From: Gibbula magus | Taxonomy: Eukaryota > Mollusca > Gastropoda > Trochida > Trochidae | DNA length: 64,000 bases | Reading direction: 5' to 3' | NCBI GenBank assembly: GCA_936450465.1 | Contig: OW388291.1 | Location: 73,562,436 to 73,626,435 of the forward strand | In this document: piece by piece, positions 4,191 to 26,810 of the stretch | Position numbering within the stretch: the stretch's first letter is position 1 | Layout: the number at the start of each line of letters is the position of its first letter | Program-made: the position numbers and the translations under genes | Notes under the pieces: generated by a model | Told to the model about the DNA's origin: nothing | Databases searched by the model: none | The model's input: only the letters and a program-made list of their open reading frames with translations

Positions 4191-4286
4191 ATCCATGCGT
4201 TTTAGAACGAAGGGGAGGCCCATGCAGAGCTTCTATTCCGCGATTTTACTTCAACGAAAAGACGAACAAATGCGAGGGGTTTTCAT
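4191..4286 (+). pseudogene. Kunitz-domain exon, N-terminal half, interrupted by a 22.4-kb insertion
   Basis: A phase-1 exon begins after the acceptor at 4190 and encodes the first half of a BPTI/Kunitz domain. It shows Cys1, eight residues, Cys2, fifteen residues, Cys3, then EGF, which is exact Kunitz spacing. The residue after Cys2 (P1 position) is Arg, which in this family predicts inhibition of trypsin-like serine proteases. At the codon where the Tyr-Gly-Gly-Cys4 block should follow, the sequence jumps into an inverted repeat. Reading on gives about 33 foreign residues and a stop at 4385-4387. The missing half, in the correct frame, is at 26733-26810 behind the duplicated heptamer ttttcat. 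The exon is therefore disrupted rather than decayed: every visible cysteine is intact. The signal peptide exon was not found. Confidence 0.85.
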
Positions 4287-4440
4287 CACCCGATCCGAAT
4301 GGAGTTACTCGCTTGAAGCGCTCTTATGTTTGCAGGGGTTACCGCTTCAAGAGGACGTACGGTATACCGTTATACCGTCCGGTATGAGGGGTTACTGTTT
4401 CAAACACTAACACCACTAAACTCCAATTGACCAATCAAAT
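4287..4440 (+). repeat. Left terminal inverted repeat
   Basis: This ~154-bp arm pairs with 26578-26732. It holds three spaced copies of a ggggttac-gcttcaa-like motif (4301-4318, 4335-4351, 4387-4402) and the near-palindrome acggtataccgttataccg. Repeated subterminal motifs of this sort are usual transposase-binding sites in cut-and-paste elements. Confidence 0.85.
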
Positions 4441-5180
4441 CTACCCAAATAGACTCTCTTTTGCGCATGTGCCTCGAATAATTTGTTGGACAACTGAAAG
4501 AAAAAGAACATTCTTTATGGGTCCTTTATAATAAAGTTTAAAATACATGCTTGTGATACTTGTTCGGTTGTTCTAAATTCTAATAATGTTATTTTTTTAG
4601 GTCGATAATGTTTCGAAGATAGGCCTACATGTAGGCTATTTCACGTTGAATGTGTGCAATCAATGTAGGCTATAAATATATGATATAAAAGTATTTCTTT
4701 TTAAAAATCAGAATGAGAATGGACATAATCTCCTCAAAATTACAGTGTCTTTTTAAAACAGGATCGATATATGAGAAACAAGATAAATCGGTTTCGTTAC
4801 GATAGGCCTATATAGTAGGCTATCTGTCCGTGACTCTCTCGATATATATAGATCTATATCAATTAGAGATTGTTTTGAACAATTTTAATAGTTGTCCCAA
4901 GATATGCCTTCGGAGCTCTTAGATTTACGATTTGTGGATAGGCCTACAGCTGCAGGTTATAAATTCCTATATGGAAGAAAAACACATTTTTTTCGTTAAT
5001 ATTATTTATTCCACCTAACCTACCTACATGTCTATATTATAAAATAAAAATGTCAGATTGGCAGAATTAATTATTGTAACATGCTGATAAAATAATGCTA
5101 ATAAAATATTATCAAGGGAGTATTTGACGAGAACTTAGTTCACACAATCTCCTTTCGTTTCCGAAGCATTTGCCATTTTG
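4441..5180. other. Subterminal non-coding stretch of the giant insertion
   Basis: No gene is seen. The motif taggccta recurs at 4620, 4803 and 4939, and once near the right end at 26420. It also occurs elsewhere in the window (about 29367 and 54735), so it may be simple background. Confidence 0.4.
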
Positions 5181-5202
5181 AAACTTCCGGTTTTGCACCA
5201 AG
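5180..5202 (+). promoter_or_regulatory. ETS-type core promoter element
   Basis: aaacttccgg is placed a few bases before the ATG at 5203. cttccgg is the ETS/GABP consensus, frequent near TATA-less transcription starts. No TATA box is seen in the preceding 100 bp. Confidence 0.4.
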
Positions 5203-8200
5203 ATGGGCCCCGCCAAGAATCAATTTTGGATCAAATCAACAGCTTATCTACGTCGCCTCTGCACGATGTATATATGTGAGTTTGGTACTAAACCGCTATT
5301 TTGATAAAACATTTGTATAAGAACGTTTCTGAATGTTAATAAAATAAGTAAACACATTTCTGATCAATATCTAAACACTGACAAAATACTGACAATCTAA
5401 AAAAAAAAATCACATGTTCAAAAGAGGACTCCAGTTTTCCTCATTTCCTTTTACTTGATGTTGAAAAATTAACTATTTAACCCTCTCACATTTCAGCTTG
5501 GACCAACACTGTAAAACTGACCAACTTACCAGAGATTAACTGTTCATTGTGATACCTTTTATCAACTTGGTAAGCTGGTATATAAGTAATATATGGTAAG
5601 TTTTTTAGCTCATCAGACTTGAAAGGCCTGATGGGCTTATGGCCTGGCATGGTGTCCGGCGTCCGTCCGTCCGTTGGTCTGTCCGTTAGTAAACTTTTTG
5701 TATTTTCGACTGCTTCTCCAGAACCAGTGATTCTAGAGAGCTGAATTATTATGTACAGACTCCTTGGCCAATGGGGATTATATAAATTGTAGATTTCGTG
5801 ACTCTGTGACCTCAAATGTAGGTCACAGGGGTCATGACCTAAAATTCTATTTTCATCTTCTTCTCCAGTACAAAAAGGTCTAGAGAGCTGAAATGTTGTG
5901 TACAGACTCCTTGGCCAATGGGGATTCTAAATTTGTGATTTTGTGACCTTTTGACCCCTAGCTAATATGGGTCACAGGGGTCACACCCAAAAAAGTATTT
6001 TCATCTTCTTCTCCAGTACACAAAGCTTTAGTCTGGAAAGCTCAATTGTTGTGTACAGACTCCTTGGCTTATTGGGATTCTAAATTGTAATTTGGTGACT
6101 GTGACCCCAAATGTGTATCACATGGGTCATGACCTAAGAATGTATTTTCAACAACTTCTTTGTATGAAAGGCTCTAGAAAACTGAAATGTTGTGTACAGA
6201 CTCCTTGGCCAATGGGGAATTCTAAATTGTAGATTTGGTGACCCTGTCACCCAAAATGTGGGTCACAGAGGTCATGACCTAAACATTATTCTCATCTTCT
6301 CCAGTACGAAAGGCTCTAGAAAGCTGGAATGTGAACAGACTCCTTGGCCACTGTAGATTGTAGATTTGGTGACCCTGTGACCCCAAATGTGGGTCACAGG
6401 GGTCATCACCTAAAAACCTATTTTCATCTTCTTCTTTTTCTTGTTAACATTGTATTACTTGAGTTTACTTAGATCTTCGACCTTCGATAATAAATCACTG
6501 CAGCCCATGGCTCTACTTTTGTTACAGTGTTGTTACAAATAAGGGCACAAAATAATAATAATTACAGACTACTAAAACAATTACAAAACTCCAAACAATC
6601 AAAACATTGTAAAACAGTTTGCCTTATCACATACCAAATGTCAATTAAAATCAAAATACTCCAAAATACTTTACCCTACAGCTCTGTACTTTACTAATCT
6701 TATTAGTTAAATGGGGTTTCAGGACCAATCTACACTATGTTGAGCATACTTAGCATAATAAGAAAATGTATGGCTATAGATTTATTACCTATTTCTGTTT
6801 TCAGAACCTGATGGCCTATCACACCTAATTTTGACAATTTTGAAAATAGGTGGTTTATTCCTCAATGATTTTCAATTGGATTTTCTTTGTGGAAATATGT
6901 TTGTGATAGGATACAACTTGAAGTTTTTGCATGGAAGAGAGTGAGCGATACAAAATATCCACTATTATTATTATCATTATATTAATATTTATGTTTTATT
7001 ATATCAAAACATTTTCAGTGATTAAATATGAAGTGTTTTTCTCATTTCACATAAAGTAAAAACAAAATGGCGTAAGGGGCTGTAGCACATTTTTTGCTCA
7101 TTGTGTTTTCTCAAATTTGCCATTTATTATTAAAGTTTATACAACATAAATAATGGTGCGTTAATAAGCAAAATTTCTCATTAGACGACCTGATAAGCCG
7201 TATCCATAGAAAACGACCTCCGGTATCTGTATTCAAAGAAAATGGCGAGACGTACATAGCGGCAGTGGTGTGGAACTCTTCAGTGTGAGAGGTAGATTTG
7301 TAGTCCTCATGAGAATTTGAGAGTTCAGAGAGCAAGAAGGTTGACCATTCCATCATTGTACCATATTTAAAACTAAATTCTTGAACAACCAGCGAGGGGG
7401 CATTTTAATGTGAACACGTTCAAATGGCCGCTCGAAGCAAAATGGACTGGCATGGCTTAATTGAACCATGTATATTCGTTTTGGAACTCTTTATATTGAT
7501 TTAGGAGTGTTATTTAGCCATTGCCCATTGGTAACACTTATTTATATTTTTGGAAAGCACTTTATTTCAGTAAGAAAACCGTGCTACAGCGCCTTTAACA
7601 TACACAGGTTTCAGGCTTCTAGAATCATAGGGTTAGGTGAAGCCAAACTCAGATTGTGTCATGTTGGCAATTCAAATTGTGTTAATTTATTGCAAATTGT
7701 CATCACATGTGGTCTTGTAGTAGTATTTATAAGGTACATATTTATTTATAAAGTTCTTTAAAAATTAAGCAATCTTCTTCAAATAAAATCAAATAAAACT
7801 TCGTTAAATTTTATAGCCAGAAACCTATAGGTTCGATTCCAATGTTTCAACAGAAAAATTTGTGAATTTTATTGGTGTTGATACTCTGCTATTTTATAAA
7901 GCATCTTCATCTAGATTTGAGAAATACAAATTTTAGCAAACATTATTTTCAAAACAAGAGAAGCGTGATCATGTCTAGTGCTCATGGTCAAAACAGGTTT
8001 TCATCATGAACATTTCTGTTTATGCATTACCATAATCATTTTGAGTCAAATCAAATTTGAATACCCATATAAAACAAAAGTCCATTTGTATGGCATAGCT
8101 AATAGTACAATAAGTATTAAAGTTATTTATGTTCAATGGGGACAGAGAGAAGGAGAGTTGGGTTTTAATACCGCTTTCAAGAGTATTTCACTTATATCGC

Positions 8201-10753
8201 GGCTGCTGGTATTACGGCAGGGAGACAGAACACTAGGGGATAGATTCTAGTTTAGCTTTCATATAATATGACTGTCTGAAGAGATATGTCACTGTCCCTT
8301 GAAAAGTGAGTGTTTTGATTTCTTTGAGTTCGATTGGAAGTTTGTTCCATAGAACTGCAACATTATAATTGGAAGATCTTTGGCCAAATTGTTTCAGGAA
8401 TATGGAAGAGATGCTGATTTACTGAGCGAAGGACTCTGGACTATTGGTAAACGTCAGTGAGCTTGACCAGGTATGACAGGACTGATCCATTGTAGCATTG
8501 ATATGCTAATACTAATACATTGAACTGAATCCAATTCCAAATCACTTTTATATCACTACATAGCCATTGGGGATCATAAATTATAGATATGGTGGCCCCT
8601 AATAAGATAATAGAGGCCATGCTCTAAAAACCTATTTTTCTTGAGAACTCAAAGATCTAAAAAGCAAAACTTCTGATCTGTTCTTCAATTGAAAAAAAAT
8701 TATATCACAAGGGATCAAACACAGCAGTCTCAGAAAAGTTTCTAGAATGTATATTTTCAATTGTTTCAACAATATCCTCACAAAATTAAGCTGAAACCTA
8801 GTGAAACAAATTTTGCCATGAATTGTAAATACTCCATCATGGCCACTTCTTGTGACACTATTGTAGTTGTCGTCATGTATCATTGTTTCATGACGTCACT
8901 TAAAAGAAATACTTTATTGTCAAAGGGTTGGCTACAAATTTGATCTTGTTCTTTGGGGGGTCCAGGTCAACCGCCGAGCCTGTTCGCGCACAGCACCCCT
9001 CCCCCCTTCCGGATCCGCTACTGAAGTCATTATTAAATTATTAGTAGTGAAGATGAATTTGAAGAGTTTTTGTTGAAAGCATAAAATCTGTTGATGAACA
9101 TCTTTAGTTGTGTGTAATGTGCGTAAAATCTTTACTACAAGAAGGATTATTGAAACTGATTGTTACACCTTTTACAGGTCTGAGGAAAGTTTGAAGAACA
9201 AAAAAGTGGAGCTCAGTTAGAAACTCATTTCAGTTGACTGTCACAGTAAGAGGAAAGCACTGTCAGCTGCAGGAAATGACATCAGCTCTCATCAAAACTA
9301 TGGAGAAGTAGACAGGTAGTAACAGATATGCTAGCACATTTATTGAACTTCTTTGTTTCCGTAGGAAAGCGAGGAGATCAGTTGACTAGAACTCTTTATA
9401 TTTATGGCCAATGTACATGTTTCATGTATGATATAGTTCTTACTCAATTTGGCTTATTTTATCCCTCTCCAAAATTAACTTTATTGTTGATATAGAAGTG
9501 AGTTCTGTCTGTGTAAAGAGTTTCTTATCATACAAGAAATTCATATTTTCCTTTTTGATCAGAACTTGAAAACTGTTTCATGAGATTTCAGTAATCAGTA
9601 AAGTCAACGTGACTTTGCTGTTAAGGAATATATTTTTTCCCTGCAATAAAATTGTTGCTGGGGTATTAAGATGGGGTATGTGCGGTCATCAATCTGTCTG
9701 TAACATGTCTTTACTGGCCCATAACCTTTTAATTAATCATTTTGGCATGAAAATATAATAGCCCTCACAATTTTGAAAATAATTTTGTGAATTCTTTTAG
9801 GCATAAAAAAGGTTCATTTAATAGAAACCTTTACAGGTCCAGGCCAGTAAATAAATCATTAATTGATTCTCTTATTTTGATCAATAATGGTACTAAGAAT
9901 CATTATTTCACAAAGGATTTTTATGATTAACAATTTAAAAATATTTAATTAAAATGGTAGAAAGTTGATAAATTTGTAAGAAAATTGTAGGAAGAACTGT
10001 CCTCATTATAACTTCCAACTTTGGTAATGAGATGCAAAATTAAATCTCCTCCTGAAGGCATCAGCCTACTTGTCTGAATAAAGCAACATAGCGGATACAG
10101 AAAAACATAATGTGTATCATGATGCGATATCAGGAGAATGATTTCAAACCATCCAAAGTATTTTGAGTTACACGGCTCATACATATTCTGGGGTGTTTTT
10201 TTATGGCAACAAGATAGACTTTAACCAAAGACTAGGCCAGGTTTTGTTTCCATATTAGATTTTTGTTATACTGTTCACTGTTATAAAGCAAGAAGTGACA
10301 TATATGTTTTGCTAATAAAAGGCTGCTAATATTTTAATTGTAAAATAAAATGTATGTTTATTCTGAAAAGCTTATTAGAATAATCTGCTTTCACATATTG
10401 TAAAATTTTAATACATTATGAAAATGGATCATAAGCATCTGTTTATCACTTACAGGGTTACTTCTTGTAAAATTTTATTGTTCATAACTATTATTTTTGA
10501 ATGAAATGTATAATTGTATATTTAGTGCTGTCTACTATCTTATTGCAGGATTCCTGTGTCTTTATTGAATGGACAAACCAAGAGATCTCTATGGGACATC
10601 TTACCTCAAGTACCACCTGATGTTTCATATAGCAACTGCCTGCCTAATGCCAAAGTCTTTCACTCTGCCATCCTCTCTTCAACACTCCACCACATCCATC
10701 CCAGTCCTCCTGAGACAAACAGTAGCTTCATATGTAAACCTACCCAGCCATAA
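5203..10753 (+). CDS. Unrecognised three-exon gene carried inside the giant insertion (119 aa)
   Basis: Exons are 5203-5275, 9234-9315 and 10549-10753. The ATG (context caccaagATGG) lies about 20 bp after an ETS-like cttccgg, a common TATA-less promoter element. Exon 1 ends at gtgagt in phase 1. Exon 2 follows tttcag, is open for 26 codons and ends at gtagta in phase 2. Exon 3 follows attgcag and stays open for 67 codons to TAA. The phases join without shift to 360 nt. The product starts MGPAKNQFWIKSTAYLRRLC, is basic at the N-terminus and has no signal peptide or membrane segment. The C-terminal half is Ser/Pro-rich (DILPQVPPD, SPPETNSS). I do not recognise the family. A stronger acceptor at 9177 would put a stop after five codons, so exon 2 may be used variably. 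It could be cargo of the insertion or a chance assembly of open frames. Confidence 0.5.
5600..6440. repeat. Tandem ~150-bp repeat with a dispersed 'ctcatcag...gtccgtccgtcc' head
   Basis: The head (about 5607-5690) has the ctcatcag/ctgatgggct inverted pair and gtccgtccgtcc, a type of dispersed repeat common in molluscan genomes. About five diverged units follow, each with tgtacagactccttggc, a gtcacaggggtcatgacc-like box and tcatcttcttctccagtac. It lies in intron 1 of the 5203 gene. Confidence 0.75.
6441..9170. other. Intronic stretch, no further exon supported
   Basis: AT-rich sequence in the first intron of the 5203 gene. About 8141-8250 (ccgctttcaagagtatttc) is a fragment of the SINE family seen in full at 59448-59741. 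Open frames here look random. Confidence 0.5.
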
Positions 10754-12880
10754 CATCATTGACAAGCACCTTTGAATATATTTATGAGTTTTCAGCAGTA
10801 TGGATGTTCAACAGAAGAGAGACATGATGTCAGGCTTGGCTGGTCAGATTGATCAATGAATTTTGACCAAAAACGAAAAAATTTTCAGACCTGTTTGAAA
10901 TTTGAAACTTCAAATTTGTATGGAGAAGTTACCAATGTGGTGATGTAGTGTCTTTTGGGGTTACAATTCCATTGACAATCATTGTTATTCATTGACATGA
11001 TTGACTTCATGTTTTCAAATTAATTAATGCTATATAAAGGTGGTCAAACTACAAGCCAGAGTCTTTCAATTCAAAGAGTGTCACTGAATGATTTAAAAGA
11101 GAATTCTTCTACAGAGAGATGGGACGAAAAATTATTATTCCCCCAACCAAAAAAGGTCGGGGGTATATAGTACCGGTAATACCAATGATTCCGTCCGTCC
11201 ATCTGTCAAGACAATTTGTGTCCGATTGATTACAGAAAAACTATTCTTCTCATCCTTTTCAAATTTGGTACATGTCTTCTTCACTACTAGGAGAGGTGCA
11301 TTGCCAAATGTATACCGAATTGGTGAATTTTTAAATTTTTTGTGAATTTTTAAATTTGTTTACTTTGTCATATTCTGAGCTAGAAAAAATGAAGCTACTT
11401 CTGTGTTGTGATTTGTTGACTTTATCATTTTCTTTTTCATGTAACTTTCATAAAAAGCTAATTCTGTGTTCTTGTTGATTTTACTATTTTATATTTTATG
11501 TGCAGACACCTCTCTCTTTAAGTAAAATAAAAATGTCAAACTTTAACAGTCCGGGGTATTAGTGAGCCATGCTCACTTTTTTGCTTGTTAATTTTAGAAT
11601 TCGTAACTTTTTTTTAAAAAAGCAAGTGTATTATGTCTTAAATCCCAAAATGAAAGAATGCTTGTTGGTCATCAAATTATTTAAAGACTTATCGCCCTTT
11701 AAAACTGGTGTCGGAAAATTACACTATTGTTTTGATCGATTTGGTCGACTTCGATTAAGTGCACACTTTCAATGAATAACATCAGAATTCTTTTAGATAT
11801 ATTTTAATCAAATAAGGGGATATATAGCTAATCATATTTTGAAAATTAATAACACTTTTAGGAGAAACAAAGTTAAATTAAGCACTGACATTTTATCATC
11901 GTTTTTAATTTGGCATATTCATTTAGATTTTTCACTGATCCACATATTTTTGTTATCGCTAATACTGTATAATGATGTGCACAGTTGAATAAACAAACAT
12001 TAATAAAATGATTATAGTAGTCACCAAACATGTCATCACTTTGCCAATTTTTAAAATTACTTCTTCAAACATATAAACTTGATGTCACTGCAAGTTTGGT
12101 CGCTTCAAGTGTAAATTTGATCGCCTATTGTGTAAGTATTATTCAATACAATGGAAGAGTGCATAGAACTTCTATTTATCAATTATACAACAACATTTTA
12201 ATTCAAAACTAAATTTACGTATATCTGTAATTGGAATAACAAACAAAATTAATATTTACTGTGAATATAAGTGAAGGTAATGTCATTGCCTTAAAGCGTT
12301 ATGGTGAATTTAAGCACTTTCAGTTAGTGTTCTGATAAGCCATTACTCCAAAATACATAATGCATATGTTGTGAAATTTTGTCGCAAAATCAATCCAAAT
12401 ACACTTAAAGGGACACATCACCTAAAGAGGATCAGGGAGTTTATACTATATAAAACTCAATTTTGATGAGTAAAAATAAAGAAATTTTTTTTCCTTCATA
12501 TATTCAAAGCAATTTTTTATTCGCAATATAAACATTAATGTTGCAGTGTGTTCTACAAAACAAACCTTGTATGGCTTTCATAAAAATGAACATTTTGGGG
12601 CAAAGTTTCATGGACATGTACCGAAACTGTTTGAGAAATTGGTGTTTTGCTTTCAAACTCAATACCCTGCACACTGTCACCATGACCACACTGATAAGAT
12701 TTCATATTGGCAATCATTGTAAGCGACATGTCACATTTGTTTTTTCCGTGTGAGTTATATGTATCATTTCTTGTATCATGTTTCAAGTTAAAACTATTTG
12801 CATTTTTATACCATATGTATTTGAAAACATATCCTTGAATAAAGTACATATATGATCCTTGACATTGTTTGCCTCATCAT
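10754..12880. other. 3' flank and non-coding repeats
   Basis: Contains a polyadenylation-type AATAAA (11526-11531) and, at about 11138-11300, a dispersed element starting ccccccaaccaaaa-like with gtccgtccatctgtc. No coding exon recognised. Confidence 0.45.
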
Positions 12881-12949
12881 GTAGGGAAATCTCGGTAGTT
12901 TATCAGACTTTGAAACAATCCATACACTGACTATGTCATAGGCTAGAAT

Positions 12950-15930
12950 CTGTAAAATGGAATAACTCAAGTACTGTTCACTCGATTTTTTGATATTTTG
13001 CATGTAGGTTCACCATAGTGAGAGTAATGTTCCTACAGAGTTTTGTGACCTTGACCGTCTTTTCAAGGTCAAAGTGAGACTTTGTCATGTTACCCTTGTC
13101 AGCGGAATATCTCCTATTGACTGGATTCTCATTATGTCTTACACATAGCATCTCCTAGGGAAGACAAAGGGCTGATTACATTTAGGGGACCTTGACATTA
13201 TTCTCAAGGTCACACGGAAGTTTGTATTTTTCGGCATGTCAACTCGCATGTTAAGCAAGATATCTCCAGTACCGTTTACTGGATTATCTTGATATATAGG
13301 ACATAGCTTCTACTAGGAAGGACAAAGAGCTCATCAGATTGTTGTGACCTTAACATTATTTTCAATGTCACATCGGATCTTTGAATTTGTTGGCATTTGA
13401 TCTTGCTTGTTGAGCTTGTCAGCAGGATATCTCAAGAACTGGTCTTTGGATTCATATCATTATCTTACACCAATATTCTTTTATGAAATATTAGGGCCCA
13501 GTCGATTTTGGTGACCTTGACATTATTTTGAAGTATCAATTTGCGGCAGGGGATCGTGTCATCTTAGTGACAACTGCTTGTTACAAAATTCATAGACCAA
13601 AATCACAAACTTTGATCCCCTAGGTGCAAAGTACCTCTCAACAAAATTTACAGCTTTGGGACTGAAGCAGTTGAAAATGTCAATTGTGGCAGGGTGATGG
13701 TCTATGCCATAAGCATATCTGGCCCTTTTCAGGTCTAAAGAGCTATAGAAATAAACAATCCTGAACCTGATTCTCGACAGATGCAGCGAATTGGCTGCAT
13801 TCAAAATTTGACAAAATTACACCACATGATTTTCCAAATATATCAAAAACGTGCGTTGTGACCTTGATAAGTGTTTGTGCAGGCCAATGAAATGCATTGA
13901 TAATATATTTAAAACAAACATCCATGAAAGGCAAAGGTTGTCTTTGTAGAATAAACATAGACATACTAGTACATGTACTCGAAAATAAACCATCCAGGCA
14001 TTGAGGCAACAGTAGCTCCAGACGGTGATTGGCAGGAGCAAGGCGAGGGAAGGTCAATATTTCTGTAAGCAGAAGCTGGGGTTTGCGCTTATATCATGCA
14101 AAAGCCGCCATCAATGTGACATTTGGCCTTTCTGAAGCTGGGGTTAGGGTTTATCTAGATAAGGTCGGTCATCAAAGTGAAATTTGGCCTTTCTGAAGCT
14201 CAGGTTAGGGTTTATCTAGATGAAGTCGACCATCATTATGAAATGTGGTCTTTCTAAAGCTAGGGTTAGGGTTTATCTAGATGAAGTCGGCCATCATTAT
14301 GTAATGTGGGCTTTCTAAAGCCTGGGTTAGGGTATATCTAGCAAAAGTCGGCCATCAATGTGAAATTTCACCTTTCTGAAGCTGGGGTTAGGTTTTATCT
14401 AGATGAAGTCGGCCATCATTATGAAATGTGGTCTTTCTAAAGCTAGGGCTAGGGTTTATCTAGATGAAGTCGGCCATCATTATGTAATGTGGCCTTTCTA
14501 AAGCAACGGTTAGGGTTTATCTAGCGAAAGTCGGCTATCAATGTGAAATTTGGCCTTTCTGAAGCTGGGGTTAGGGTTTATCTAGATGAAGTCGGCCATC
14601 GTTATGAAATGTGGTCTTTCCGAAGCTTGGGTTAGGGTTGATCTAGCAAAAGCCGCCAGCATTGTGAAATTTGGCCTTTCTGAAGCTAGGGTTAGGGTTT
14701 ATCTAGCTTTAGTCGGCCATCAATGTGAATTGTGGTCTTTCTGAAGCTGGGGTTAAGGTTTATCTAGATGAAGTCGGCCATCATTGTGAAATGTGGTCTT
14801 TCTGAAGCTAGGGTTAGGGTATATCTAGCAAAAGTCGGCCATCAATGTGAAATTTGGCCTTTCTGAAGCTGGGGTTTGGGTTAATCTAGATGAAGTCGGC
14901 CATCATTATGAAATATGGTCTTTCTGGACCCAGGATTAAGGTTTATCTACTAAAAATCGGCCTTCATTAGGAAATGTGGCCTTTCTGAAGCTGGGGTTAG
15001 GGTTTATGTAGCAAAAGTCGGCGATCAATGTGAAATTTGGCCTTTCTGAAACTAGGGGTAGGGCTATTCAGAAAAGGCTAGGAAAACTATGACACTAGGC
15101 CTTTTAACTTGTGCGAGTCATAAATCACTATCAAACTTGGTATTCTTGAGCTTTTAGTTCCCTGGAAAATGTCAAGACAAGGGTATATAAAACGCGGCCT
15201 TACTGACGCTAGGTATGCACACAGTTGTACTTGTTGATTTCAGTAACATCCGGGTATCCTGGACGTTTGGTTTATTCTACCCAGCACTAAATAAAATATG
15301 TGTTCAAAATACGTTAAATTATTTTATTCAATACAAACTAGTGTTTCTGTAATCAACATTCCTCAAGATATGATTATCACATTAAATGTCTCATATCTAC
15401 AGTGAGGCTGGCGATGTATGGTCTGGACTGGCAATTGGGATACCGGATGGCACCTCTCACAAGTCACAAGCAGTTGTGACCAGAGGGCCATGATCCCCTG
15501 CCACAACTTAATACTTCGAAATTAAAAAATAATGTCAAGGTCACCAAAATAGACTAGTGAATCTTCCCAAGTAGGACATTGGTGTAAGATAATGAGATTC
15601 CAGTGAACAACTATTGAGATATCCCGCTGACAAGCGTTTACATGTAAGTTCACATAAAGAAAAATTAAAAGTTCTGCTGTGACCAAAATCCAACCAACCC
15701 TTTATCTTCTCTAGGCGTAGTTATGTGTAAGAATCCAGTCAATTTGGGACATCCAGCTGACAAGGGTATAATGGCTCATTGTGACCTTGAAATGAAGCTC
15801 AAGGTCACAAAACTATGTAGGAACATTACTCTCACTATGGTGAACAAATATGCAAAATATGAAAAGAATCCTGTGAAGAGTAATTCAACTACTCCATTTC
15901 GGTTGTAGAGAAATACCTTGCCAAATGCTG
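12950..15930. repeat. Large inverted-repeat element with a satellite core
   Basis: The left arm (about 12950-13560) and right arm (about 15485-15930) are diverged inverse copies. Shared landmarks are atagtgagagtaatgttcct, the caaggtca/tgaccttg boxes, the gtcagcgggatatctc-like box and ggcaggggatc. Between them lie a unique spacer and the 61-bp satellite. The layout is that of a foldback element carrying a tandem core. No coding capacity is visible. Confidence 0.7.
14060..15066 (+). repeat. ~61-bp satellite containing ggttagggttt
   Basis: About sixteen units of 61-62 bp follow the pattern ctttctgaagctggggttag, ggtttatctag, gtcggccatca, gtgaaatttgg. Alternating unit variants (aaatttggcc versus aaatgtggtc) suggest a higher-order arrangement. 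Each unit carries one TTAGGG, the animal telomere motif, but not in tandem as at a telomere. Confidence 0.9.
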
Positions 15931-17573
15931 TATCCCCTGCTAAATGAGGGACTGGTGATAATTAGTACAGAAATAAGAGACTTTACTGAAAGTACAGAAA
16001 GATGTCCACATAACGTTTTGTCACCCATGAAGGCAGCTTCATTAGAGTTGACCAGGTCTGATGAAGCTGCCCTCATTGATGGCAAAATTTAAACATAAAC
16101 ATCTTTCGTAATGTTATCTGAGCATATATCTTTTTGTTTGGGCAGTATACCCTCTATTATTAAGATATGAATGAAATTAAGACTTTTGTAGACAACACAT
16201 TTACTATAACAAGAGTCCTGCTCTAAATGTATCACTTCGATGAATGAATGTGAAATGAAAAAAAAGCACATCATAAATACATTTTATTCTGAGTGAAGCA
16301 AAATCAGGTACATCAAGATCACTAGTTTATTATACATGCTTTTTAGGCATAACTTTATAACAAGTCATAACTTTATTAATTCATCAAACCAAAAATACAG
16401 CTAAAAATAGAGTGAACATTGTTTTGTTTATTTTAAAAACATGCATTAAATACACATCTACAAGTATTTTGCCTGAACATCAAACTATCAAACAATCACA
16501 TATTTTCCTTACCCCTTCAATTCATAGGATCAGAAAAGATTAAGAGCTTTGGTGTTATTTCAACAATTTGATAACAATAAGACACAGCTTGAGACAATAT
16601 AGATTACTACAAGTGCAGAGCATAAAACATTCAAAATATACCGGTAGCAATCAAAGCTCAGAAAACATACACTGAGATAAACCATATGACAGCTAAAAGA
16701 TAATTATAGTATCATTTCATTGGAAGGTTCACAAATGAATCACTTGAAATGGATTCTTTTTACATTCAGTTTCCAAAACATACTGTAACAGGTAGCATTA
16801 AACAATGTTTACAGAAAAAAAAAGAAGTTTATGATGAAAATGAATCTAGTAGATCTAGTCAGATGATACACTCTACTATTGTAGTAAGAAGGTCAAGTAA
16901 TTGTATAAAGAAACATTTAAGTATTTTTAGTTATCAATAAAATTCTTGATATAAAAAGTAATTTAAAAAAAAATTTCATTATTGACAATGCAGTTTTTGT
17001 CAAAAAATTTCAAGGAATCAATATTGCCAACAAGTGTACTTAAGGCAAATTATTTGGATATATTGAGGCATAAAAGGCTATTTATAGATTGATGCAATAA
17101 TAAACCTGATTTGTTTGTTATGACTTGTTATTTATGAAGTGAAGATTTAAAAAGTGAGACTGTCAACATCACAAATTCCAGAACATGAACATTGTGAATG
17201 CACTAAATCAGGAAGAAATGACCACTGATAATGGAGCAGCAGCTGGCAATTACAGCATTTTTTAAAAACTATACCTGAAAAACTTTTCTCAGATGTTGTA
17301 AAAAGTATATTTTAAGGTTTGAATTGTCTTTTTTTTATCAACTTGTATCCTTTAAAGTTGGGATAAAGTGATAGGACAAAATAATTTGATCTGATGATCT
17401 TTAGTATTAAGTCAAAATTAGTACAATTTCTGCACTTAGAAAGCTTTCAATAGAGTCCAAAATAATCCCTTAAAATTTAATACATTTTGTTACATGTTAT
17501 TATCATTGATGAGGGATTTTCAATGTGGATTGCTTTTCGATGTATCTTCTTTGATGTAGATGTAGATGTTTTG

Positions 17574-17624
17574 GTGTAGGTACTAACACTTGCAACTGCT
17601 CGATAACAGTGTTAGTATCTACAC
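17574..17624. repeat. Imperfect hairpin, 17-bp arms
   Basis: gtgtaggtactaacact and agtgttagtatctacac pair around a 17-base loop. It could be a foldback element tip or a structured RNA. Nothing else marks its role. Confidence 0.7.
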
Positions 17625-17784
17625 AGTAGAGTCACATTCATTGCAATAAAGAAGTCAGCTATCCATACATCCCAATTATCAATATTTGTTATTTTTAAGG
17701 GTCAAAATCCCATACAAGTGCTGATAAAGCAAGTTGAAGAAGATATTAATACTCTGTATCATTCCAATGCTATAGAATAAAACA

Positions 17785-17889
17785 TCATGTGTAAAACAAA
17801 TACAGAGGTTGTACAAATTCAGGGTCCATTGTTGTATCCAGACAGGAGTCACAGCCTTCATCAATACCTTCAATCACTGGTTGTTTTGT
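17785..17889 (-). CDS. Candidate terminal exon, unidentified
   Basis: The minus strand has a 34-codon open frame after a tag acceptor, ending in TGA. It is acidic with paired cysteines (GIDEGCDSCLDTTMDPEF). The better acceptor 31 bases upstream gives other frames with early stops, so this may be untranslated or decayed. It lies inside the giant insertion, downstream of the 19186-19260 candidate on the same strand. Confidence 0.25.
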   Translation of the reverse strand, partial: TKQPVIEGIDEGCDSCLDTTMDPEFVQPLYLFYT

Positions 17890-19185
17890 CTACACTTTGG
17901 CCCCGACACTAAAACACAAAATATTGGAAATCTTGTAAGTATTATTTTATAGGCAGTAGTAACACTGTAATATAACTGAAGTTACTGATTAACAAACATA
18001 AATTTTCAAAATTAATATAAAAAAGACTGCCTTTACTTTGTATTCGTCAACAAGAGAATTAGTCATCGGATCACAGTTCACTCATTTTACCCCCTCTTTC
18101 AACATTGGTAAAAGGAAAAAGCTTCAAAACAGTTAAAGGCACATCAATGTATAGTCCTTTGTAAGAACACACCACTGCAATTTTAAGTTTTAGAGATATA
18201 CTTATGACAATATGACAGTTCTACAGATATTGCTCTCATAATTTGAGTGCAATATCTGTAAGGCCCAAAAAAGAAAAAACAATGCGATGACGCATTTTAA
18301 TTAATATTTATTTACCACATTTTTTTTTTCGAATGAAGAGATAAATTCCATTTTATACAAACTTCTCACCGGTTTAAAACATTTTTTTATTACACAATTA
18401 TTTATATAAATAAAGCACAATCCCGCTTAAATATGTGTTACTTTTCCAAATGGTCAATAATCTTACACTCTTACACTCCATCTCAACAGAAGCGAGTGAC
18501 ATTTTCAATGTCCAATGATTGAGGCTAAAGAATTAGATTTATCTGCCCCTTTCTTTTGTTTGAAACTGACGAGGACGGAAACCAGAAACAAATTCTTTTT
18601 TTTTTATTTGGCCAAACAAGTATGTAATTCAGATCTAGGTATCATGGTTGACATGTGAATAATTTATCATAAAGCTAATATCTTTATTTGGGGAGATGCT
18701 CCAGACAAAATAACTCCCTCATAGATTCTCTGTTCACGTCATAAAATCTTATGTAGAGATAACCCATAATAGGCACATCTAGGGATTATGGTTGAAATTA
18801 TATTTATTTTGTGAATATTGCAGCCATTAGCGGCGAGGATAAACAATAACCACCGCATTGAAGTTTAACATTTTCAAGAAACAGGGCAACAGTGAGCATT
18901 GCTGAGCTCACACAGTCCAGTTTGTAGTTTGACCCCCTTCAGACAACATTAATCAATATAGTCAATCATGTGGGAGATGTAACCCCGCCAACACCAGATT
19001 GATAACTTACATTTTAAGTCATATAGTTTTTGAGTCAACATTGGTCAAGATAAACATCTGCACAAAATTTAATAATTCTGGACTTTTATATTCTAAGAAG
19101 ATTTGCATAATTTAACCACCTTTCACAAAAGGCCTAATGAGATAATGAAGAACTTCCATTGTATAGACAAAACTAACCACATGTT

Positions 19186-19260
19186 TCAAGCAGTGCTTTC
19201 CTCTTGCTCTTCTGCTTTTACATATAGGCCCTGCTCCTTTTGTTTTCTCGCATTGAATAG
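19186..19260 (-). CDS. Candidate terminal exon, charged tail
   Basis: After an atattttcag acceptor the minus strand is open for 24 codons in phase 0 to TGA, with a coding-like charged composition (RKQKEQ, then KAEEQEE). It would suit a short cytoplasmic or nuclear tail. An upstream exon-like block at about 22343-22418 (good tttattcag acceptor, gtatgt donor) has a coding-like frame in matching phase, but that frame carries a stop near its start. The set could be a decayed gene fragment. The family is not recognised. Confidence 0.3.
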   Translation of the reverse strand, partial: LFNARKQKEQGLYVKAEEQEESTA

Positions 19261-20429
19261 CTGAAAATATGTTGAACATACTATGTTAGAGTCACTCCAG
19301 GCTTAAATGATACAAGGAATTACTCTAGCAAGTTGATCCATCACATCAAAGATAAGAAATCCGGTATTTCTTGCCAAAAGATAATTATTTATAATAATGT
19401 CATCCTTGTTAGTGGATGAATAAACAAATTTTGAGAAACTTTATTTCTTACACTGGAATAATACATACAAAAAGAGCAAAAAACAGATTCCAAATTTAAC
19501 CTTTCAAAACGCAATATATGTCTCGGATATCCTGAAAGACGAAATATGATTCTCAACCTTATTATAACAACAGTCAAGTATAATATATACATATCCAAAT
19601 TAAATGGATCTTTACCGCAACTTCATACAATAAAACAAGATTTAAAACATGCCTACGAAATTGACAAACTCGTATGTTACTCAGAATGCAATTATTTGAA
19701 ATTCACTAAATTCTGGTCTGTATGCCATAATCTATTTACCATTTAAAACTCACTACAACTTCTTGAATGTTAAATGCCAGGTTTAAAAAAGAAACGAGAG
19801 AACTTTAAGTGAAATCCTGTATTTTTGTTTTGCAGTTGTTCTGTACCAATATGTGTTTGTACTTCTATTGAAAACGTTTGTACTATGAATGTAACAACAT
19901 ATATATGTCTGTGTATCTGAAAAAGAAATAAAATTATTTTTTAAAAAATACATACGAATGTAATGATCTTTTTTAGGTTTTCTCAAGAAACCAGTGAAAA
20001 CCTTATATCAGCAGTCCAGGGAAACTGTAAACAGAAAGAAAAGCAGTTGAAAGTACCCTGTGAATGTATATGTATTTAGCCAATCGGTGATAAATAGGGG
20101 TAAATTGTAAAAAATTGTTGAAATGCCTGAATGTGTTAAATAAACAGCTCAGAATATACCTCATAGAAGCAAAAAGGAATTCCCCACTCCCCCTCCCGAA
20201 CCAAATTACGTACTGTACTACCCTATCCCAGTAAGTTAAAACTAGCTGGTACGTGGCTATTGTGTAATTAACTGGGTTCCAGCCAGCCTACTGACCCCCT
20301 TAGCCAAGTCACTCAAACTGTACTGTGAAAACAAACTAATGAGACCAGTGTCCTTAAATTACTTATTTACAGTGCTACAGACATGGCATGGGGATCATTT
20401 GAAAGGCTTAGCTGTTAACATTGCCAAAG

Positions 20430-20860
20430 ATATTTAAAGGGAGGGGTCTGTCACCATCTTGGATTTTTTGTATTACATGAAATGAAAAGACACTATTGCA
20501 CCTAATTTTTAAAATTTTTAATAATGAAATACATACACTGATAGAGTATTCACATAGAAACACATTAAATGTCATAAAACTAGTAAACAATTTCCTGTTA
20601 TGCTGTCACAAAGTTTTCCCCACTCACAGCACCAATGACTGGCCTCAGTTCTCATTGTTTTTATTTTTCAACAAATGTGCGCTTGTGTTTATCAAGTTGT
20701 GAAATATAAACTCATCAAAATATACTTTCATTAGTATCTTTCAATTTGACTGTGTTTTAATCATGTATTAATTACATATATGTGTAAACAGGAACATCCT
20801 TTCGAATTTCGTTTCTACAAAAAATACCCTGATAGAACCCTCCTTTCAAGTACTTTAAGG
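20430..20860 (+). repeat. Dispersed ~430-bp repeat, copy 1
   Basis: This is the inverse of 45765-46180, sharing for example gtaaacaggaa, the aaaataccctgatagaac-like box and ttcatgtaatacaaa in inverse. A third, partial copy lies near 22785-22985. It is a dispersed family of unknown class. Confidence 0.7.
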
Positions 20861-20939
20861 AGTGCACCACTTTAAGTTGTACCCACTGCCACGACCTTAG
20901 TTTTGTGTCAGAGTAAGACAATGAAATTTACAGTATCTC

Positions 20940-21480
20940 CATTCAACAAAGAAAGTTCGAGCTTCTCAGCAGTGCTGGTTCCTTGAGGAAAGTCGAAAGA
21001 ATATTTGATTGTGGACACATTGTTATGCCAATATTTGAGGGGTGTGGGGTGGGATTCAAGACATATTTACAGACTTGAGTGTCCATGTAACAAGGATAGT
21101 ATTCTGAAAATTTTAGATTTCTAGCATTACTGGTTCTTGGGGAGAAGTCGTCTAAAGATTTTAGGTTGGACATTCTGCCACCCTCATATTTGGTTGGGGA
21201 TCAAGACCAAATGAACAAATTTAAGTCTCCATGTAACAATAACATATTCTGAAAATGTCAGCATCCAAAGGCAAACGGTTTTAAAGTTTTAATGGTTTTA
21301 GTCAAAATACCTGCCACATCCATATTTGAGGGGGGGGGGGGGGGGGGGGGGGTTGTCAGGGTCAAATGAACAAACTTTGATCCCTTAGGTGCAAGGTACC
21401 TCTCCACAAAATTTCAGCTTTTGGGGTGCAACGGTTCTGGAGAAGACGAAATGTAATGGGTGTGTTGGGGAATAGGGGGT
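20940..21480. repeat. Repeat with tandem substructure and a 23-base G run
   Basis: Two diverged subunits share gtccatgtaacaa and tattctgaaaat. A G run sits at 21330-21352. The block aaactttgatcccttaggtg at about 21372 recurs at 13609. Confidence 0.6.
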
Positions 21481-22699
21481 TATACTAGTTTGGGGTATCA
21501 TAATTCAAAGTGCTAATCAGCCTATGAATGCTATTTAGAGCACTTTAGAGGTGCATCCAGAGTTATATTTAGTCTCTAATTGGGGTAAAAGAGATCTCAT
21601 CCTTAAAAGTATTTATTAGTCCTCAAAGGTCAATAATGCTGAAAATTGTGTGTAGATCTTGTGTAACTTAACAATTAAGAATTATAAATGATAAATTTGG
21701 CTGACTATCCAAACCATAATAGAGACCACATTGACCACATGTAGTATTATTTCATGTTACTCTTCAACATTGGAGAAAATGACAACCATCAGAACCACAG
21801 AGCAAAATACCGGTAGCTCTATTTGGTCCCTGGACTTGCAGGGTCAAACTTTGTCAACTGATGGTAATATTAACAAGACTCATAATTAGGTATTCAAGAA
21901 ATAAAATGTTTTGTTGTGACTTTAGTTTGTTGCATTTGTAGATCTGAACCGAAGCAAGGGTTCTGTACTGCATTACATACCAAACCGAAGGTCAAGTGTA
22001 CCTTGACAGCATGCCAAAGAACCAACTTCTTCCACCTGGATAGCTTGAGTTTATCTGCAGTAAATGACATCACCAAAAGATCAATAAATATAAAGAACAT
22101 CATACTTGTGCATTTAGATTGTTTGTCTTGAACGAGAATATGTCATTGTCATGGAAGCGGAGGATTTTAAAAATTTATTATATAACCTCTTTTTCCAGCA
22201 AAATGTTAAAAACAATTTAGTTGCTCAAATTTAATGGGACAAAGCTCCGCACATTGATACACGGTTGCATGAACAGGACTAATGATTTGATATATTTGAT
22301 ATATTTCAAAGTCAATTATTTCAAGTCAACATACCAGATATTGGCTGAGGAGTGGTTCTTCATCTAGTTGTTGGTCAAGATAGAATGTTATCAGTCAATA
22401 ATGAGGTACAGGTTACCTGAATAAAATAATATAATAAAATAAAATTATTATGTAAACGCAAAAGTTGATTCATTTTAAATATTCAAAAAAATATTTTTTG
22501 ATGTAAACATTAGTTCTCTGTCCAAATTCTTGAAACACTGAATTCAAAGGTCAGTCATTAAAGCAACAAGCCAAATGGAACTTATCATAAATAATGAGAA
22601 GAAATGCTGCATTTATTTATAGCTTTGAACATACATATTGATAGAATATCCACAAAATAACAAATACTTCATCATTAGACTGTAAACATTGTCTTATCT

Positions 22700-22800
22700 A
22701 GTGAGTGAGTTATTTTTAAAAGCCACTTGGGCAATATTGCAGCCAATAGTGGTGATTGTTTAATCTACAGTCGTCCTCAGTTTCCACAGGACTGTATTGT
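22700..22800. repeat. Fragment of gcagccattagcggc SINE-like family
   Basis: gtgagtgagttatt...caatattgcagccaatagtgg matches 53220-53312 and about 18815-18870. These look like core fragments of a tRNA-headed family. Confidence 0.55.
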
Positions 22801-23130
22801 AATCATCTATCAATTACATATGTGTAAACAAATGTCCCCTCAGTGAAATTTGTTGTTAACTTGGTTTAGTCGGTAGAGAAAAACATGACATGTCATGACA
22901 ATTTGACATAAAAGCGGATACACAACAACCAGTGAATTTTGTTTCCTCAAAAATACCCTGATAGAACTGTCCCTTTTATCTTCAAGGCGCCTTGCATGAA
23001 GGTGGCAGAGATGGCCAAGTTGACTGATTTCACTCTTGGATCTTTAAATTTGATCTTCCATAACTTGTTCCCCGATCACTTGATATGGCAACGATCCTGA
23101 CCTAAATAAAGTTACATGAGTGGCTGAATT

Positions 23131-24660
23131 AACTAGAAGAGCGTTTGCGGGACACCGCAAAAGCAGAGCAGCTCCGAAACTTTGGGTCTCGCCTTTCCCT
23201 GTTCCGCCTTCTCCTCAGCATAAATAAAATGGGAATTTTTTTGGACAAAATGTTTTTCATTATTCAAGATATTCTTACAAGTTAAATCATCACTGGGGTC
23301 ACTTTTCACAACTTTGTTCTTAAAACCTATTTCTGATTTCAAAATTGGATTAACATGGCCTTAACCAATATCTCATGACCTTGAACTTTGACCTTCAAGG
23401 TCACACCATCAATGATTACTTTTCATTGTGTATAACAATCATGCAATGACTCAAAAGTGTTCATTGTTAACATAAGGCATATTCACAATAGCACGCTTAA
23501 GTTGTGACCTTGCTGTGACCTTGACCTTTGACAGATTTTAGCAAAAACGTTTTCAAATCTTGGTCTTTCTCCATAGTTGATATATACCAAGTTAGGGCCT
23601 GATAGCACAGAAGTTTTTGAAGTTATCGTGTTTACAAGGATTTTTGTAGTGATTTCAGAACTCATGACCTTGACCTTTGACCTTGAATGTGAGCATGTCA
23701 AAATATTTCCCCAGGTGTACAAGAAAGAAGCTATATATATGAGGTGTTGATACCTTCATGAAAAAAAGTTATAAAGAGATTTCAGAACTGGTGACCTTGA
23801 CCCTATCTCGTGACCTTGACCTTTAAAATTCAAGGTCACACAATCATTGATCACTTTTCATTGTGTATAACAATCCTTTAATGATTCAAAGTGTTAATAG
23901 TTGAAATAAGACATTTTCGCAAAAGCATGCTTAAGTCGTGCCCTCCCTGTGACCTTGACCTTTGACGGATGTTAGCGAAAACCTTTTCAAATCTTGGCCT
24001 TTCTCCATAGTTGATGTACACCAAATAAGAGCCTGATAGTACAAATATTTTTCAAGTTATCGTGTTTACAAGAATTTTTTAGCGATTTCAGAACTCGTGA
24101 CCTTGACCTTTGACCTTGAATGTGAACATGTCAAAATCATCCACCAGGTTTATAAGAAAGAAGCTATGTATATGAGGTGTTAATACCTTCTTGGGAAAAG
24201 GTTATTTAGTGATTTCAGAACTGGTGACCTTGACCATATTTCGTGACCTTGACCATTTAAATTCAAGGTCACACAATCAGTGATCACTTTTCATTGTGTA
24301 TAACAATCAGTTAATGATTTAAAGTGTTAATAGTTGAAATAAGACATTTTCGCAAAAGCATGCTTAAGTCGTGCCCTCGCTGTGACCTTGACCTTTGACG
24401 GATGTTAGCGAAAACCTTTTCAAATCTTGGCCTTTCTCCATAGTTGATGTACACCAAATAAGAGCCTGATAGTATAAATATTTTTCAAGTTATCGTGTTT
24501 ACAAGGATTTTTTTAGCGATTTCAGAACTCGTGACCTTGACCTTTGACCTTGAATATGAACATGTCAAAAAAATTCCCCAGGGGCATAAGTAAGAAGTTA
24601 TGTATATGAGTTCTCAAAACCTTCTAAGAAAAAAGTTATAGCGAATACAAAACGCGCGCG

Positions 24661-24691
<31 letters not shown>

Positions 24692-24742
24692 GACGGAAAC
24701 TGCGCAAAAACTGATAGCAGCTCCGACTTAGTCGGAGCTGCT
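23131..24742 (+). mobile_element. Helitron/Helentron-like non-autonomous element with ~432-bp tandem core
   Basis: The 5' end contains a tttgcgg/ccgcaaa hairpin. The 3' end is a perfect 12-bp hairpin (24716-24742, agcagctccgac stem, tta loop) preceded by a GC-rich cggcgg run. The agcagctccga string also occurs near the 5' end. The core holds three ~432-bp units (about 23350-24640). A 3' hairpin, no long TIRs and a tandem core fit Helentron-type elements. No Rep/helicase is present. Confidence 0.5.
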
Positions 24743-26577
24743 AATTATGATATCAAAATTATTTTCATAACTTCCAGCTAGTAGTTCAATCTGTTTTCTT
24801 GTTTTTCTTTCAATCAGCAACATGGTTGTTATTTACATGTATGAAATGAGTGATCCTTTCCTTTGGAATGTGGTGAATTTGTACCTGAATATGCTGTATG
24901 CATGAGCACATAAAGTCATACCCATCGGGCTAAATTAAACAAATAAAATCTTTCTCAGGCTTTGGCGCATCACTTTTATTTGTGAGCATGACAACTTTTT
25001 ATTGTCATTTGAAAAATTAAATTGAGAAAATGACCGCATCATTTTTTTGTAAACCCCAAAATCCACTTGTCCTGGCACTCAATATATATACCGGTATATA
25101 GGTATAAGCTATTTAGATGTATTTTAATTACTTGGTCTCATACCGATCTGTTCAACTATATTCAACTTCAAATTAACTAAAGCAACTTAAATTATTATAC
25201 ATAAAGATTTGTAGATACTATTTTTATGACCCATTTTCATGTGAAAACAAGTGTATATTTAAAATAAACCCTGCGACTAAGAATTAGTATAAACAAACCT
25301 TTCCGAATCCTTATCCTGCACTGTTCATTCTGCATCTTCCTCAAGATCTACCTTCAGTGCAAGCACCCGTGGAACTGGATAAATACACAATATCGGTCAG
25401 TCACTATATTAGCCAAGAACAAAGAATGTGAATTTGTAACAGTAACATTTATATTATTATAAGACTAAAATATTGCACTACTAGTCTACTACTATCTATT
25501 AGTCCTTCCCTAAATTTCTGAAAACAGTTTTAAAAATAGTATTATAAAATTGAGAATCAATATTAGACATATTAAATATTTAAAAACTGCAGGCATATTT
25601 TAGCCTACACTTATACTAGAAAAACGTGGTCAGTAATCTTGGAAGATAGTAATCGTTTTGACCTCAACTTTCCACACTTTGGTAGATCTACATGACACTA
25701 GACATCTCATCTGTTTTGTCTTAGGTGCGTAGCTTTACCCGACAGCACTGTATTCCCCAAGGTGCGTAGCTTTACCCGACAGCACCGCACAACTGCCACG
25801 AGTGTCTACTTTAAAAAAATGAAATAGAGAAGAGATTAGATCTATTTGTCAAGAAATAATTGTATATAATTCAGTTGGATCCTAGTCGAGTCATTTAAGC
25901 ATTTACATGTTGAGTTGCCGTAAGGAAAAACCGGCAGAAACGTCACAACGGCATGATTACCATGATTTGACAGAGTGCACGATAACTACATTCGCACGGA
26001 CGCGACAAAAGGAATATGATAGTGTTAGTTTAGTTTACAATGTCAATTCATAATCATTCCCAAACACACGTCGTAAAGTCACTCTTTCTGTAAAGAATTT
26101 ACCTTTTTGTTACCAACCAGTTCATGTTTTCGCGCGGAAGTTACATGAGTTATTACCTCCCTTGATCACGTGCAGGTTAACATAAAAAGTGGAAATGATT
26201 TCAAAACGGAACATTGGGACATTTTCTATCGAAACCATACTCGTTGTCTACAGAGTACGTTATGTCTTCTGTTTGAACATAAACATAACATATTTACATA
26301 AATAGTTTCAAACAGATGAGATAAGACAAGTTTACCGAGGTGTGACCAGGCAGCTGACGTGCAAAATTATTAGCGAATGCAGATCAGTTTTGTGTCATTT
26401 GGTAGACATTGCTAAAATGTAGGCCTATTGTGTCGAAGTTTATTCTAAGAACACTCTACTGCAGTACTGGTAAACTATTAATAAATCTATGTAGTATCTC
26501 TACATATGTACCTATTTTCACTTCTAAACGCTCTTCTGGAGGCTTGTTTTTCTCTTTCTCGTTGACTTGTGCTCATG
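24743..26577. other. Non-coding stretch before the right TIR
   Basis: There is a 25-bp tandem duplication of ggtgcgtagctttacccgac (about 25722 and 25761). A CpG-bearing stretch at 25920-26140 could hold a minus-strand promoter. A minus-strand ATG with a donor-like aaaaag/gtaaat (about 26105-26130) and a short exon-like block at 25327-25371 (tttatccag acceptor) are suggestive, but I cannot join them in frame. Confidence 0.3.
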
Positions 26578-26732
26578 TTTGATTGGTCAATATTAGAGTT
26601 TAGTGGTGTTAGTGTTTGAAACAGTAACCCCTCATACCGGACGGTATAACGGTATACCGTACGTCCTCTTGAAGCGGTAACCCCTGCAAACATAAGAGCG
26701 CTTCAAGCGGATAACTCCGTTCGGATCGGGTG
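26578..26732 (-). repeat. Right terminal inverted repeat
   Basis: Inverse of 4287-4440 with a ~115-bp mismatch-free block. It ends ggatcgggtg at the border with the duplicated ttttcat. The subterminal motif repeats match those of the left arm. Confidence 0.85.
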
Positions 26733-26810
26733 TTTTCATACGGTGGCTGTGACGGCAATGACAACAACTTTGAAACTATTCAAGCTTGTCGGAAGGCTTG
26801 TGTTAGATAA
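26733..26810 (+). pseudogene. Kunitz-domain exon, C-terminal half, displaced
   Basis: Immediately after the right TIR the plus strand encodes the remaining part of a Kunitz domain: YGGC, twelve residues including GNDNNF, CRKAC, then a stop at 26808-26810. Cys4-x12-Cys5-x3-Cys6 is the exact family spacing and completes the half at 4191-4286. It has no acceptor of its own, so it is not a separate exon. Both halves are free of internal stops, which suggests a recent interruption. Confidence 0.85.

Follow-up and report, generated by a model that had tools for sequence, protein, structure and literature searches.

A 22,446-bp insert interrupts a Kunitz exon in the genome of the trochid snail Gibbula magus. 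It occupies positions 4287-26732 of the window, the whole 64,000 nt stretch analysed here (contig OW388291.1, positions 73,562,436 to 73,626,435, assembly GCA_936450465.1), and is probably a giant non-autonomous DNA transposon of the KDZ (Kyakuja-Dileera-Zisupton) family, moved by a KDZ transposase from elsewhere. A first-pass annotation of the window had described a single, recently inserted unit of this size that cuts the exon in mid-domain, with the direct repeat TTTTCAT at the junctions, inverted repeats of ~154 bp including an identical block of ~115 bp, and no visible transposase. The insert size and both kinds of repeat were recovered on re-examination, and the observation of an element within a split exon is confirmed as real and far above chance level. 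The insert appears to be a recently active, very large representative of a transposon class already known, with a body unusually divided in its CpG content.

The two exon halves were searched separately against Pfam. Positions 2-30 of the Kunitz profile PF00014 are matched by 4193-4285 (E 2.6e-8) and positions 30-52 by 26733-26807 (E 2.5e-9); the halves are adjacent parts of one domain, cut in the middle as annotated. The left junction reads GAGGGG TTTTCAT/CACCCG and the right one CGGGTG/TTTTCAT ACGG, thus both copies of the 7-bp repeat directly abut the CACCCG...CGGGTG ends of the element. At this insertion alone the duplication can also be read as 8 bp. The terminal inverted repeats (TIRs), arms of 153 and 155 bp, are identical at 149 of 155 positions in inverted orientation (E 4e-70) and differ by mismatches at arm positions 14, 22, 23 and 138 and by a 2-base gap. 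The motif AGGGGTTACYGYTTCAA occurs four times in the window, always inside the arms, versus 0.04 matches expected. Viral and prokaryote sequence collections contained no match to exact pieces of the transposon end. A 17-base degenerate pattern of the end matched 12 viral stretches, which we judged to be chance, and a 23-bp match in two IMG/VR records was rejected, both records being one identical sequence with no wider similarity.

The first-pass annotation had proposed searching the genome for the TIR and for an autonomous relative with the same ends. We searched the species' own genome (1.47 Gb in 140 contigs; the window is C3:73562436-73626435) with the 154-bp end, which gave 23 matches (23 of 23 candidates scored). 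Fourteen form seven inverted pairs by position. Five of these span 17.7 kb (C2), 22.4 kb (the window element on C3), 28.0 kb (C15), 22.7 kb (C7, at 82.8 Mb) and 31.9 kb (C17). Two further pairs on C7, of 46.6 and 11.6 kb, have flanks that are mutually reverse-complementary, and are therefore inverted duplications rather than simple insertions. The region C7 51.58-51.68 Mb (pieces L029-L035) contains inverted duplications made of this transposon family, and a long uninterrupted open reading frame (ORF), of which the piece read covers 1,969 aa and which is retroelement-like by eye only.

The decisive evidence for the insertion of a single very large unit, which is also supported by the target duplication, the inverted ends and the adjacent domain halves, is a near-identical copy that lies elsewhere in the genome between different flanking sequences. 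This copy, on C15, is flanked on both sides by its own 7-bp duplication, TATCGGA; the 8-bp reading fails there. It is collinear with the window element in opposite orientation, and six blocks cover 20,839 of the 22,446 bases. Five of them (4287-5475, 99.4% identical; 5473-10876, 99.6%; 10878-15063, satellite array included, 96.5%; 16455-23135, 99.4%; 24742-26732, 98.7%) contain 19,228 identical among 19,412 aligned bases (99.05%), and the sixth (15064-16454) is 97.1% identical over 1,403. Between blocks, the C15 copy holds additional sequence of about 1.9, 4.4 and 0.9 kb by coordinates. The sole part of the window element missing from C15 is 23136-24741, which is missing from C2 as well and carries a TAA duplication. 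It is thus a nested insertion, and the common mobile unit is about 20.8 kb long. The near identity and collinearity of the C15 copy indicate that a unit of this length has transposed recently.

The arms themselves do not date the event. All four arm mismatches are found again in the arms of C15, and the first three also in those of C2. Arm divergence is therefore inherited, and we rejected it as a clock for the window insertion. The left arm is 100% identical to one C16 match and one C2 match. Of the earlier case for a recent insertion, the part that appealed to arm identity falls away, and recency is supported by the C15 copy instead. Alignment of the C2 copy covers 14,766 bases at 97.2% identity and leaves a 4.7-kb gap. 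Counting inverted and satellite matches, alignments cover 12,391 bases of the window element for C7 (82.8 Mb), 11,891 for the C7b palindrome, 5,936 for C7c, 2,027 for C13, and 3,736 and 3,081 for C16 and C6, of which 10 kb each were read.

The relative on C17 has ends that match those of the window element and holds exons of a KDZ gene. Its arms are 87% like those of the window element, the right arm being nearly identical over the outer ~70 bp, and its own two arms are identical at 143 of 143 positions. Between them lie four pieces of the KDZ profile PF18758, in order and on one strand, which reach with gaps from position 2 to 212 of 217. Upstream are the cysteine clusters CxC1 (E 6.1e-11) and CxC2 (E 4.2e-8). 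The ORF pieces are preceded by AG acceptors, as judged by eye; the 215-aa ORF used as query in a homologue search returned no relatives. All 58 genome candidates for PF18758 were scored and yielded at least 32 matches. Two of these are near family ends, at a distance of 24.8 kb from the left arm on C17 and of 23.0 kb from an end on C12. The C12 match is single, with 28.3 bits and one internal stop, and we take this locus as only supporting. Near the C12 end, piece L046 carries at 4619-5188 (+) an ORF with the transposase helix-turn-helix domain HTH_Tnp_4 (E 5.8e-10). Several PF18758 matches on different contigs have equal score and stop pattern, which suggests that a further KDZ expansion may have occurred recently.

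Under the KDZ reading, the source copy, about 20.8 kb long or 22.4 kb with the nested insertion already in place, would have moved whole, presumably by cut-and-paste. The transposase would have been supplied in trans, for example by elements of the C17 type, whose ends agree with those of the window element over the outer ~70 bp, and would have acted on these ends. The insertion hit the last exon of the Kunitz gene, where it duplicated 7 bp and divided the domain near profile position 30.

Several results weigh against this assignment. Nine of the 23 end matches are unpaired or partial, and a target duplication is found in only two of the five non-palindromic pairs (window element and C15), with none at the C2, C7 (82.8 Mb) and C17 pairs. 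The C17 left arm is without its terminal 7 bp, and the cores of the C17 and window elements are unrelated except for short repeats. No KDZ match is present among the 236 insert ORFs of at least 38 aa, and tblastn of the C17 KDZ exons against the insert gave nothing convincing; such an absence is as expected for a non-autonomous copy. At C12 the end match is unpaired and 104 bp long, and the KDZ match is weak. Finally, the duplication at the window element and C15 is 7 bp long instead of the 8 bp of Zisupton proper. Since the 8-bp reading fails at C15, we assign the element to KDZ broadly and not to Zisupton.

It is also conceivable, although unlikely, that another transposase works on these ends and that the KDZ gene of C17 is a nested passenger. 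KDZ genes are abundant in this genome, the window copy is without a KDZ remnant in the tblastn comparison with the C17 exons, and the HTH_Tnp_4 ORF on C12 stays a candidate; it was the only other transposase-like match among ten ORFs scanned from the 76 of at least 110 aa in the fetched family pieces. Yet the KDZ matches of C17 and C12 lie at a similar distance from an end, and the lengths of arms and duplication agree with KDZ. We regard it as quite unlikely that the element is a Pack-TIR whose ~18-kb filling was captured from a methylated host gene body, as the CpG-depleted core between CpG-normal ends of the window copy might suggest, because several copies have the core in common and the core has no clear coding signal. 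The core was searched for with 17000-18900 as query, and 40 of 3861 candidates were scored, so that a parent could be missed. Among these, matches of at least 1 kb were the window element, C15, C2, C6, C7:51.53 Mb and C16, all six on chromosomes with family ends and four of them less than 20 kb from one (C6 at 17 kb, C7:51.53 Mb at about 45 kb, C16 at 114.5 kb). No host parent locus was recognised in this sample, whose loci were not read for host genes, and many of the shorter matches scored belong to a dispersed repeat of ~285 bp. A capture long ago, at the root of the family, may have taken place. On C16 (47911139 to 48025670), 114.5 kb separate a left end from a core piece on the same strand that is 98% identical to the window element; the two may be parts of one hugely expanded copy or separate fragments.

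That a short miniature inverted-repeat transposable element landed in the exon and later swelled in place to 22 kb is very improbable. Nested repeats are present, and 23136-24741 was indeed added in this way; for all except these 1.6 kb, however, the idea is contradicted by the C15 copy, which has the same block order over 20,839 of 22,446 bases at another locus with another 7-bp duplication. Hardly any credence is left for an assembly artefact that joined unrelated sequence into the exon: the window is without any N and no point in favour was found, and the exact duplication, the matching arms, the adjacent domain halves and the independent near-identical copy all speak against it.

The interior of the window element appears to be non-coding. 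It has 100 ORFs of at least 50 aa, compared with a mean of 100.4 in 30 Markov simulations. Pfam scans covered 236 insert ORFs, all of at least 38 aa, and gave best E values of 0.0084 for the 100 ORFs of at least 50 aa and 0.0086 for the 136 ORFs of 38-49 aa, both at chance level. A RAG1 match of 13.8 bits was rejected, as it is below the 25-bit cut-off and at chance level among 100 ORFs. Rfam had no match in the window at gathering threshold. In a coding-potential scan based on amino-acid frequencies, three non-simple segments barely exceed the simulated maximum of 8.2 (8.8 at 8944-9021, 8.5 at 23053-23214 and 8.4 at 13994-14053); simple-sequence segments at 24641-24742 also exceed it. For 54 of 59 ORFs of at least 60 aa, one or more of five diverged copies (C2, C16, C7a, C7b, C7c) allowed a comparison. 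None compared in at least two of them stays free of stops and indels throughout, in-frame indels being scored as breaks. The best-kept ones (15877-16089 and 15779-15961) show no break in C2 or C7b and a one-base gap in C7a, and ORF 9280-9492 is intact in the sole diverged copy covering that region. The annotated lack of a visible transposase thus holds for the window copy as far as the ORF, Pfam, tblastn and copy-comparison tests reach. The ~285-bp dispersed repeat in the core (18275-18560) has about 30 genome matches among those listed.

CpG-normal ends versus a depleted core of ~18 kb are a new observation on this element. The best one-block model places the depleted block at ~5300-23900, with a CpG observed/expected ratio (o/e) of 0.375 versus 0.895 elsewhere and a log-likelihood gain of 82. 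In 500-bp bins the observed gain was 78.1, compared with a maximum of 25.6 in 200 bin shuffles. Two 1-kb bins within the block rise to 0.68-0.70, and low-CpG bins outside it (39-40 kb and 62-64 kb) are simple-repeat arrays. Masking the (GCG)n run leaves the right edge poorly fixed (23.7-25.7 kb) and gives a gain of 80.9, versus 53.2 when the block edges are forced to the element ends. The block takes in the start of the nested insertion. The edge near 23.9-24.6 kb was considered as a capture junction or as a methylation boundary in the 433-bp array and rejected: because this array lies in the nested insertion absent from C15 and C2, nothing can be inferred from it. The C15, C2, C7 and C17 pairs are likewise close to normal at the ends and low in the core, where some bins are normal (1-kb bins, the end bins including about 500 bp of flank). 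The CpG-normal end zone varies from about 1 to 3 kb and extends to almost 4 kb on the left side of C17; the profiles of single-ended copies are noisier.

CpG differences between the window element and its copies were counted as transitions at bases within CpG in either copy, without direction and excluding non-transition changes. Core versus ends, they amount to 6/370 vs 0/126 for C15 (one-sided p 0.17), 19/266 vs 1/102 for C2 (p 0.011), 5/46 vs 0/48 for C16 (p 0.025), 38/233 vs 3/51 for C7b (p 0.037), 15/104 vs 3/86 for C7a (p 0.008) and 17/70 vs 6/83 for C7c (p 0.003); the six tests are not independent, as the copies have a common history. Compared with non-CpG transitions, cores show a 3.8-12.7-fold excess and ends one of 0-2.8-fold, with the C2 right end (5.6, one change) as the exception. 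In C15, non-transition changes at CpG bases outnumber transitions (8 in the core, 3 in the ends). The core repeat copy at 20434..20850 has TG/CA at six CpG sites of the copy outside the element, with none in reverse (two-sided p 0.031).

CpG loss is described as the usual trace of methylation (PMC8857923). This pattern suggests that the core may be germline-methylated and the outer ~1 kb not, by gene-like transcription or by silencing, both of which are possible. Methylation is reported on gene bodies and young repeats in oyster (PMC4378273), and in annelids as a mosaic associated with gene bodies and, in one of the species, with intronic elements (PMC11292947). A tentative and rather doubtful extension is that this giant, non-coding transposon family is epigenetically gene-like, with an ~18-kb core germline-methylated and ~1 kb ends unmethylated wherever it inserts, perhaps with a long transcript starting in an end. 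If so, the non-coding core would be a retained functional part and not filler.

Among known systems, fungal KDZ1 is given a length of about 11 kb, TIRs of 241 bp and duplications of 8 bp; KDZ2 is given as 9.2 kb with 139-bp TIRs and KDZ3 as 10 kb with 169-bp TIRs, the latter two with 4-8-bp duplications (PMC12810828). Zisupton proper is given 8-bp duplications (PMC12730594), and multi-exonic Zisupton is known in animals (PMC9297572). The family described here resembles these elements in its long TIRs and short duplications (139-241 bp and 4-8 bp in PMC12810828) and in the multi-exon KDZ gene with CxC cluster of the C17 relative. It differs in that the non-palindromic pairs span 17.7-31.9 kb, about double the 9-11 kb of those published descriptions, and in that the window copy has no detected transposase, a 7-bp instead of an 8-bp duplication and a CpG-split body. 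Pack-TIR and Pack-MULE elements are likewise non-autonomous, with transposase-free filling between TIRs. For Pack-TIRs, one report gives a median duplicated region of 224 bp and a largest human case of 3,585 bp, from a scan limited to <5 kb, or 10 kb in the human test (PMC8277862). Here, in contrast, a unit of about 21 kb is multi-copy, and no parent locus is known for it. Mavericks/Polintons and Teratorn share terminal inverted repeats with the window element, and Polintons also the size class. The former are defined by a virus-like gene set, a 6-bp duplication and AG ends, and the other type by a TTAA duplication, whereas the window element has a 7-bp duplication and CAC... ends; no genes of these elements, virus-like domains included, were found among the insert ORFs scanned. 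RAG/Transib-type elements have a RAG1-like core and a 5-bp duplication, which differs from the 7 bp and the 13.8-bit RAG1 match seen here. No giant non-coding KDZ element of an animal was found in the open-licence literature, surveyed by leading titles.

DNA transposition is said to weaken above about 6 kb of cargo, and engineered elements have moved 100-200 kb (PMC6431247). A natural, non-coding, gene-breaking unit of ~21 kb that was recently mobile suggests that an animal KDZ-type system can move such blocks. Units this large would escape scans limited to 5-10 kb. In this genome of patchy CpG loss, the contrast between ends and core offers a testable case of how methylation is directed to, or excluded from, a mobile element.

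Table 1. Features of the window element, its insertion site and the KDZ pieces of the C17 relative (window positions unless given as profile positions).
Feature	Position	Strand	Basis
Split Kunitz exon, 5' part	4193..4286	+	preceded by TTTACAG acceptor; PF00014 match and sequence
Left target-site duplication TTTTCAT	4280..4286		sequence read directly
Left terminal inverted repeat, L type	4287..4439	+	149/155 identical to right arm
Two subterminal copies of AGGGGTTACYGYTTCAA, left arm	4334-4350, 4387-4403	+	motif search
Left element end, normal CpG (o/e 1.02)	4440..5300		CpG counts
CpG-depleted core, no coding content detected (o/e 0.38, TpG/CpA 1.27)	5301..23900		CpG counts; similar layout in other paired copies
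147-bp tandem array within core	5698..6435		repeat analysis
2.9-kb inverted-repeat structure containing 61-bp satellite array (14098-15063)	12955..15899		repeat analysis
~420-bp repeat copy with TTAA ends	20434..20850	+	related copy outside element at 45764-46173
Nested insertion, 433-bp array, TAA duplication	23136..24741		absent from C15 and C2 copies
Right element end	24742..26577		outermost 25751-26577 CpG-normal (o/e 1.04)
Right terminal inverted repeat, R type	26578..26732	-	alignment to left arm
Subterminal repeats in right arm	26616-26632, 26669-26685	-	motif search
Right target-site duplication TTTTCAT	26733..26739		sequence read directly
Split Kunitz exon, 3' part	26733..26809	+	ends at stop codon; PF00014 match and sequence
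Undivided Kunitz domain, neighbouring exon downstream of insert	34642..34812	+	PF00014 E 5.9e-18
C17 PF18758 piece	profile 2-53		E 0.0013
C17 PF18758 piece	profile 51-98		E 1.6e-7
C17 PF18758 piece	profile 102-132		E 0.0079
C17 PF18758 piece	profile 163-212		E 5.4e-7

Outside the element, the undivided Kunitz domain downstream returned no relatives as query in a homologue search. A relic of a LINE (long interspersed nuclear element) reverse transcriptase lies at 31303-33204 (-; PF00078 E 1.2e-28); its ORF has 3453 relatives, and the best named among the 120 listed include Haliotis asinina, Glandiceps and Nucella. Exon-like ORFs encode an AMOP domain at 48284-48823 (+; E 3.4e-18) and an ephrin-receptor-like domain at 60156-60515 (-; E 7.7e-10). 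A long purine-rich array occupies 62180-63998, and one of its frames encodes EEREKGGNG-like repeats.

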